This document shows positions 633 to 64,000 of a stretch of 64,000 nucleotides of DNA, in pieces; within the stretch, counting starts at the first letter, position 1, and the number at the start of each line of letters is the position of its first letter. A program made the position numbers and the translations under genes. The DNA lies in assembly GCA_030528025.1 (NCBI GenBank), contig JAUMZP010000001.1, positions 248,001-312,000 on the forward strand, written 5' to 3'. Below the pieces are notes generated by a model that saw only the letters and a list, made by a program, of their open reading frames with translations, did not search any database and was not told the origin of the DNA. This DNA is from Candidatus Saccharimonadota bacterium. Lineage in GTDB: Bacteria; Patescibacteriota; Saccharimonadia; Saccharimonadales; Saccharimonadaceae.

Positions 633-637
633 AAGAG

Positions 638-787
638 TGTCCCAGACGAATATCGGGCGTGTATGATTTTCCTAACATCATATGATAGGGATTCCAACAT
701 TCACCATACCCGTGGGTATGGATGAGGAGACCCACCTTGCATCATGCAGGGGAATATCAAGCGCCTGGGGTGAGTCTGGGATTTTTT
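638..787 (+). ncRNA. unassigned structured small RNA (about 150 nt)
   Basis: No reading frame is visible, but the segment has its own promoter. Its ends close on each other: TCCCAGAC (640-647) pairs perfectly with GTCTGGGA (774-781), followed by six T, so the terminal stem doubles as an intrinsic terminator. Internal helices include TGTATGAT with ATCATGCA (one G-U pair) and an apical hairpin CCATACCC-GT-GGGTATGG. The rod shape with an internal bulge recalls 6S-type RNAs. However, I do not see the conserved SRP RNA apical motif or enough 6S signatures to name it. The existence of an RNA gene is likely; its identity is open. Confidence 0.6.
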
Positions 788-817: not shown

Positions 818-949
818 TTCTCTTCATCACTTCATCCGATGGAGTGTGCTAATCGGTTGTAATAACCAATTAGCAGCCCAGCGCAAGAGGTCGATACTTG
901 GGGAGTATCGACCCTTATAGCGCTCTATCGGAGGAAGTGATGAAGAGGG
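818..949 (+). repeat. structured repeat SR, copy A
   Basis: The outer stem runs from 820-840 to 927-947 with a single mismatch. Inside it are hairpin P2 (GCTAAT 848-853 with ATTAGC 869-874, inner GGTT/AACC, loop GTAAT), the linker CAGCCC, helix P3 (AGCGC 880-884 with GCGCT 920-924) and hairpin P4 (9 bp, 889-897 with 905-913, loop TTGGGGA). Related copies lie at 5143, 41691 (minus) and 63926 (minus) with different stem sequences but retained pairing. It is a mobile or functional RNA-like element of unknown role, placed just before the rnpB promoter. Confidence 0.75.
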
Positions 950-5055: not shown

Positions 5056-5142
5056 GCTGTCTATAGTTAAGCATATTGGTGGGGTCTGTGCAAATTATTT
5101 TGGTGAGCTTTCGGGAATTCATCTGCCTTTAGTGCTAGCTCT

Positions 5143-5264
5143 CTCTTCCACTGCCTCATCCGATGGAGCGTGAGGACTGGTTGTAATGACTGGCTCTCAG
5201 CCCAACACACAAGGTGAATATTCTAGAGATATTCACTCATATACTGAATAGATGAAAAGAGCGC
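5143..5264 (+). repeat. structured repeat SR, copy B
   Basis: It shares CATCCGATGGAG, GGTTGTAAT and CAGCCC with copy A in the same order. P4 is GGTGAATAT (5213-5221) with ATATTCACT (5229-5237), again 9 bp around a 7-base loop, but four pairs differ from copy A with pairing kept. P2 also changed on both arms. The outer stem is shorter (TCATC/GATGA plus CTCTT/AAGAG). It lies just upstream of the tmRNA promoter. Confidence 0.7.
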
Positions 5265-5391
5265 TGCAATAGAGATAAAAATGCTTTGGTGCTACAAGAG
5301 ACGAGTCTGAGAGCCTCTCCAAGAAAGCTAACCTCAAGTTGCTCATAGTTGCAAGATCCAAGCTGCGAGAGGTTATACATGAGCAAAACCG

Positions 5392-41588: not shown

Positions 41589-41690
41589 AGTGTCCTTGGG
41601 TCTGGGGTATAGACAATGCTACTCTTGTCCGGTTTACTGTCTTGTGACTGTGTGATACCACTGTTTTTTGCGCTCCGCTTTCTACCGCTT

Positions 41691-41794
41691 ATGCTTCCTC
41701 CGACCAAATACTCGCTCTAGGCTCCCAATATTAGAGCGAGTATTTGGGCTGAGGCATCCATACCTCTCGAGATGCGAGAGGCGCTCCATCGATG
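41691..41794 (-). repeat. structured repeat SR, copy E (divergent)
   Basis: On the minus strand the order is CATCGATGGAG, hairpin CCTCTCG-CATCT-CGAGAGG, CAGCCC, a 14-bp hairpin (AAATACTCGCTCTA with its complement) whose loop contains TTGGGAG, then TCGGAGGAAG. It shares the unpaired motifs of copies A and C with wholly different stems. Confidence 0.6.
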
Positions 41795-41900
41795 TGGTGT
41801 ACCACGTAGCTACAAATTAAAGCACCCGTCACAAACTATTCATAACAGTGTAGCATATTTGTTGCAATTTTGTGAAAAATAGGCAAATAAGTATCGGTCG

Positions 41901-63832: not shown

Positions 63833-63925
63833 GGTGGCGTGCCTCGGCAGCGTGTTGTTGGATAAGATATGTGCGTGATTGGCGGGAAATAAACTACCTT
63901 CTCTAGTATGGCGGTAGCTTGTCCT

Positions 63926-64000
63926 CTCCACATCCCTCCGATAGAACACTATAAGGGTCGATGTCTCCCAGACATCGACCTCTTGACGCCAGGGCTGAAA
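63926..64000 (-). repeat. structured repeat SR, copy C (cut by window end)
   Basis: On the minus strand it reads CAGCCC, then a 9-bp P4 GGTCGATGT / ACATCGACC (63956-63964 with 63972-63980) with loop CTGGGAG, then CCCTTATAG and ATCGGAGG. P4 differs from copy A at the inner pairs with pairing kept. The 5' half (P2) lies beyond the window. Confidence 0.75.

Follow-up and report, generated by a model that had tools for sequence, protein, structure and literature searches.

The window analysed here, a stretch of 64,000 nucleotides (C9:248001-312000 of a 1.03-Mb Saccharibacteria genome, G000), carries copies of a branched hairpin which we judge, with somewhat more confidence than doubt, to represent a hitherto undescribed family of mobile DNA elements, small, palindromic, non-coding and non-autonomous, restricted to one Saccharibacteria family, whose folded strand is recognised and whose stems are kept by template switching. 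The first-pass annotation had put the repeat forward as a candidate for an undescribed element and, in agreement with this, the family has no match in Rfam. The element is ~130-200 bp in size and consists of a head of 80-90 nt (junction, P3 and P4) on a stem of ~20-50 bp. Within the head, (C)TGTG is followed by hairpin P3 with a TGYAATA-like loop, by CAGCC[CG]A[AG], and by the P4 base CGC/GTG (or GCG) with an A-rich bulge on its 3' side. Above this base, the P4 stem pairs perfectly and is free in sequence apart from a short conserved part at its apex; (A)AGTG and P2 come next. The GGGAG previously listed as a shared P4 loop motif does not characterise the family: this loop differs between copies and genera.

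A first covariance model (R1), built from seven copies of the window's genome, detected 9 intact and 4 decayed copies in that genome (13 altogether) and additional copies in three further genera. A second model (R2), built on all copies found up to then in the window's genome and these three genera, detected the element in 23 of the 393 genomes searched from the class; these carriers belong to 11 genera, every one of which falls within the window's own family (Saccharimonadaceae). With the final model (R3), built from 64 copies, each carrier genome was found to have between 1 and 14 copies, while the 380 genomes searched from the phylum gave no copy outside the window's family. In total, the covariance models recover ~100 copies in 23 genomes, and the model-based search suggested by the first-pass annotation thus did produce further homologues. 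The 12 other genomes of the window's genus contain no copy, and six of them, rescored at full sensitivity, again gave none. Strict exact patterns, two of which were derived from copies of the window's genome only, had no match in plasmid and phage collections, viral contigs or GTDB r220 contigs. A looser pattern matched two viral contigs (one locus, 99.98% identical), which we regard as a chance match to phage sequence without the fold, rejected by the model.

The copy at 818, for which a multibranch fold had been proposed, is real and complete. Extending the fold outwards from the core gives an element on the + strand at 818..949 (1511-1642 of locus L042), whose outermost pair is 818-949. Fold and arm pairing define its 5' arm (818..846, +), in which the copy-specific outer stem P1 is followed by P2 as far as GGAGTG. 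Fold and family alignment place the P3 hairpin TGCTAAT...ATTAGCA with its conserved loop TTGTAATAA at 847..875 (+), and a block of conserved columns marks the junction GCCCAG (CAGCC[CG]A[AG] in the family) at 876..881 (+). P4 occupies 882..922 (+); according to pair counts and the model it has the base CGC/GCG (882-884 with 920-922), an A-rich bulge and, within the same interval and strand, a variable and perfect stem GGTCGATACTT/AGTATCGACC. The fold then gives the 3' arm of P2/P1, CTCTATCGGAGGAAGTGATGAAGAG, at 923..949 (+). R1 matches this copy at 808-957 (E 3.5e-35) and R3 at 829-938 (94.1 bits); the fold has a z score of -10.8 as RNA and -10.5 as ssDNA, the 150-nt stretch being ~10 SD better than shuffles.

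Four copies had been proposed in the window, and three of them hold. The one listed at 5143 is a real but decayed member (5131..5281, +; 46.6 bits with R1, 28 bits with R3, many columns unpaired); its 5' half is good and its 3' half is lost, pairing being gone in the 3' half of the P4 base and in the outer stem. The one listed at 63926(-) is real and intact (63912..64000, -), cut off by the window end, beyond which its 5' part runs for 63 nt. The full copy (C9:311912-312063) scores 155.5 bits with R1; 102 bits were obtained for the complete copy and 32 bits for the in-window part with R3. The fourth, listed at 41691(-), does not belong to the family. The stretch 41690-41820 (-) combines short family-like motifs with an unrelated 14-bp perfect hairpin (AAATACTCGCTCTA...TAGAGCGAGTATTT), and all models reject it: even with filters off the scores are 8.7 and 15.4 bits, which come from the hairpin alone. 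It was therefore left out of the copy count.

All intact copies of the window's genome are on contig C9 (52% of the assembly), at C9:198271-470707, and decayed copies are found alongside them; the only match on the 267-kb contig C3 is a weak one with R1 (E 0.02). By position among the ORFs the copies are intergenic, with one inside a short, doubtful ORF, and they occupy unlinked places, as is required of MITEs as short non-coding multi-site elements. No replication-strand bias was seen in this genome on the basis of GC skew (5 copies on + vs 7 on - in the right replichore); across the inferred origin from these there is one weak copy, at 64.8 kb. Two separate sequences were noted in the course of this analysis. 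Approximately 80 nt adjoining one copy (C9:240013-240092) are a distinct short repeat, present at three more places in the nearest relative, G003, with 78-80% identity. Window positions 637-785 (+), between a gene for an M50-type peptidase and rnpB, are a divergent 6S/SsrS RNA candidate (26.7 bits vs a gathering score of 46.4), and this stretch is kept in 12 of 12 other genomes of the genus.

The head and the stem behave differently. Between copies of one genome core identity is 0.82 (G089), 0.88 (G109) and 0.73 (G076), whereas 5'-arm identity in the same three genomes is 0.56-0.59, compared to 0.54-0.56 after shuffling; the two arms of one copy nevertheless pair at 0.81-0.87. Since the arms show only shuffled likeness between copies but match within each copy, the outer stem is copy-specific and yet paired. 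The arms are not always renewed, because those of the window's genome are partly related (0.70 vs 0.59), as are some outer arms of G134.

The earlier observation that stems change on both arms is borne out across the family. We assessed covariation by pair counting, comparing cells with two-sided change to shuffled and slid versions of the alignment. The 64-copy alignment, which leans to the model, has 840 such cells vs 227 +/- 15 shuffled and 170-222 slid, and two-sided change occurs in 39 of 42 pairs; an alignment that had not been adapted to the structure has 75 vs 29 shuffled and 18-28 slid. The first-pass annotation had staked its proposal on further homologues and on significant covariation beyond the copies of the window; the proposal survives because homologues exist and covariation is overwhelming (840 vs 227 shuffled). 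The ratio of two-sided to one-sided changes is 840:64 overall, 343:29 in P1/P2, 163:9 in P3 and 334:20 in P4, with the remaining helix count at 0:6. Stems are almost purely Watson-Crick, and G.T pairs make up just 2-6% in stems outside the P4 base. RNA stems are usually richer in G.U.

Strong covariation by itself is no proof of a functional RNA. Template switching is known to homogenise arms and to invert the spacer between them (PMC8604942, PMC8794818). Template switching during replication predicts the near absence of one-sided changes and G.T pairs, and likewise homogenised arms and inversion between the arms. A purely mutational account of the stems is countered by the excess of G.T over A.C on the core strand. 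In the arms this ratio is 124:50, outside the modelled region it is 79:40 (p = 4e-4, with cells that are not fully independent), and in copies antisense to both neighbours it is 32:13. From this excess, selection probably acts on the folding of the core strand itself, whether as ssDNA or as RNA. This strand-specific selection is not uniform, since P4 has no G.T excess (29:27).

These results bear directly on the view that the copies form a multi-copy family of trans-acting structured RNAs, each transcribed and selected as RNA. The three-way-junction fold, the conserved loops and junction, the strong covariation, the excess of G.T that the core strand shows beyond the modelled region and the retention of copies at orthologous loci are all consistent with this view, but the element is neither preceded by a conserved promoter nor followed by a terminator, is missing from all congeners and most of Saccharimonadaceae, exists in decayed copies, tolerates arbitrary sequence in its outer stem, and has unusually rare G.T pairs and changes that are nearly always two-sided. 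We therefore consider an RNA family of this kind unlikely. The first-pass annotation had left the choice between a selected RNA and a ssDNA hairpin substrate. A selected folded element is upheld, and of the two options the RNA gene is less supported and the ssDNA hairpin substrate fits better, because copies act like mobile insertions, their orientation is independent of genes, conserved promoter and terminator signals are lacking, and stems are near-pure Watson-Crick.

Evidence that copies are lineage-specific insertions comes from comparison of occupied and empty sites. In the nearest relative, G003, each spacer that could be aligned lies between the same genes but is shorter and lacks the element. 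In genus g60, where the comparison covered three sites of G134, the spacers of five relatives are 16-50 nt and G134 has ~165-170 nt more; judging from these spacings, the excess fits the whole 150-nt hairpin, not the head plus one arm. Exact boundaries could not be drawn from either G003 or the g60 relatives, whose flanking sequence has diverged too far. Two copies of G073 are identical over exactly 144 nt (GGCGCC...GGCGCCA) and have unrelated flanks; because this identity spans both arms, the duplicated unit in G073 is the whole hairpin. No target duplication is visible at this pair, the sole one that is exactly delimited.

Arms and head bear further marks that fit template switching. In G191, G165 and G158 the arms extend into the closing codons of rplU, and elsewhere into other genes, so that an inverted repeat of these codons stands on the far side. 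At the orthologous parB-lepB site the head is reversed in G172 relative to G019. One copy in G076 has an arm that includes some of the arm sequence of the copy facing it head-to-head. Arms that are paired but unrelated between copies of one genome, arms that enter the codons of adjacent genes, and the shared arm sequence in G076 could be explained if only the head moves and the outer stem is made anew, at insertion or later, by inverted duplication of adjoining target DNA. Against this stand the whole-hairpin duplication in G073, the g60 spacers, which match the remainder of G134 and contain neither arm, and the related arms among copies of G000 and some copies of G134, so that movement of the head alone appears improbable. 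Similarly, we give little weight to a mobile hairpin head that would gain a fresh, locus-specific self-complementary stem on insertion, or be read by structure plus a few loop bases, through a hitherto unknown folded-strand recombination system in Patescibacteria.

Contexts in which the neighbouring genes were confirmed by homology comprise 13 convergent, 20 tandem and 6 divergent arrangements. Relative to genes the orientation of the element is random, with either direction occurring, and regulation of a neighbouring gene was rejected on this ground. There is no enrichment of promoters upstream of the element and no conserved one. A U-tract directly follows the hairpin in 0 and 1 of 66 cases on the two strands, and a bidirectional terminator was consequently rejected as well. 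More broadly, the element might serve the host as a bidirectional 3'-end element between genes, stopping transcription or protecting mRNA ends. A stop codon lies within 20 nt of the start of many outer stems, divergent contexts are few, and in genus g8 copies are retained at the ends of rplU and parB, all of which would suit such a role. But the U-tract is missing on both strands, the strand bias tracks the core and not the adjacent gene, an elaborate conserved head would be needless, and closeness to stop codons would be expected anyway of insertions in a compact genome, where those landing elsewhere do harm and are lost; a host-useful 3'-end element is therefore rather unlikely. The g8 copies, located after rplU (rplU-parA) and at parB-lepB, are structurally intact in several species, and since the same loci are occupied in these species, copies can persist for long. 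Such persistence suggests either a benefit to the host or very effective correction, and counts against the mobile-element reading.

The mobile element that we favour would work as follows. It would act as a single strand in folded form, most likely ssDNA that becomes accessible while DNA is replicated or taken up, and a trans-acting enzyme would read the conserved loops and junction together with the mere presence of a stem. Replication template switching between the arms would keep the stems perfect, extend them into flanking sequence and at times flip the head. Recognition and template switching, acting together, could yield stems that are wholly changed and still paired.

The literature searched contains no mention of a small palindromic mobile repeat in Saccharibacteria, although such repeats are already known in many bacteria. 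The attC sites of integrons are recombination substrates recognised in folded-strand form, in which the stem may vary freely and few unpaired bases are constant. They form a single hairpin and not a three-way junction; inspection by eye revealed neither R-box sequences nor cassette arrays in the present case. REP sequences mobilised by TnpA-REP (RAYT; PMC8266576) are likewise extragenic palindromes that can act as folded ssDNA and are recognised strand-specifically; however, they are short single hairpins following a conserved motif, in contrast to ~150 nt with a three-way junction. Their Y1 (HUH) transposase, TnpA-REP, has no counterpart here, PF01797 being absent from the window's genome while control genomes were positive. 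Reverse transcriptase (PF00078), expected for a retron ncRNA, is also absent from this genome, and no transposase was recognised by eye among the species-specific ORFs listed for it. That neither a Y1 transposase nor a reverse transcriptase turned up in this genome as a mobilising enzyme counts against the mobile-element reading.

The MITE-like repeats ERIC, RUP, BOX and Correia (PMC10969869) are the closest in form: they are short, non-coding and intergenic, with a long palindromic fold, and repeats of this kind vary in copy number between close relatives and are often near gene 3' ends. Such families share terminal repeat sequence, whereas here the arms differ from copy to copy and the internal three-way-junction core is conserved; shared terminal inverted repeats are lacking in G089, G109 and G076 and partly present in G000 and G134. 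As for a target duplication and a parent transposase, none of the former is visible at the one G073 pair, and searches of the window's genome for a Y1 transposase and for a reverse transcriptase were negative. Mitochondrial double-hairpin or repetitive hairpin-forming elements (for example PMC2800124) are non-coding hairpins spreading through intergenic regions too, but differ in genomes, size and architecture.

What sets the family apart is an unusual split: the branched head is conserved, whereas the stem is free to take any sequence provided that it pairs. Its ~100 copies are natural replicates for asking how perfect hairpins persist, whether by selection or by template switching during replication, and the mobilising enzyme, once found, could give a new folded-strand recombination system. 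Saccharibacteria are parasitic, and the bacteria that host the element are only now becoming genetically tractable.

Copies also occur in close groups. Head-to-head pairs of elements, with cores only ~24-32 nt apart, were observed in G076 (L201, L241) and G117 (L288); two species of a single genus have two such pairs apiece. In G109, three elements lie within ~1.1 kb around a pilin-like gene (L226, C2:123104-124239).
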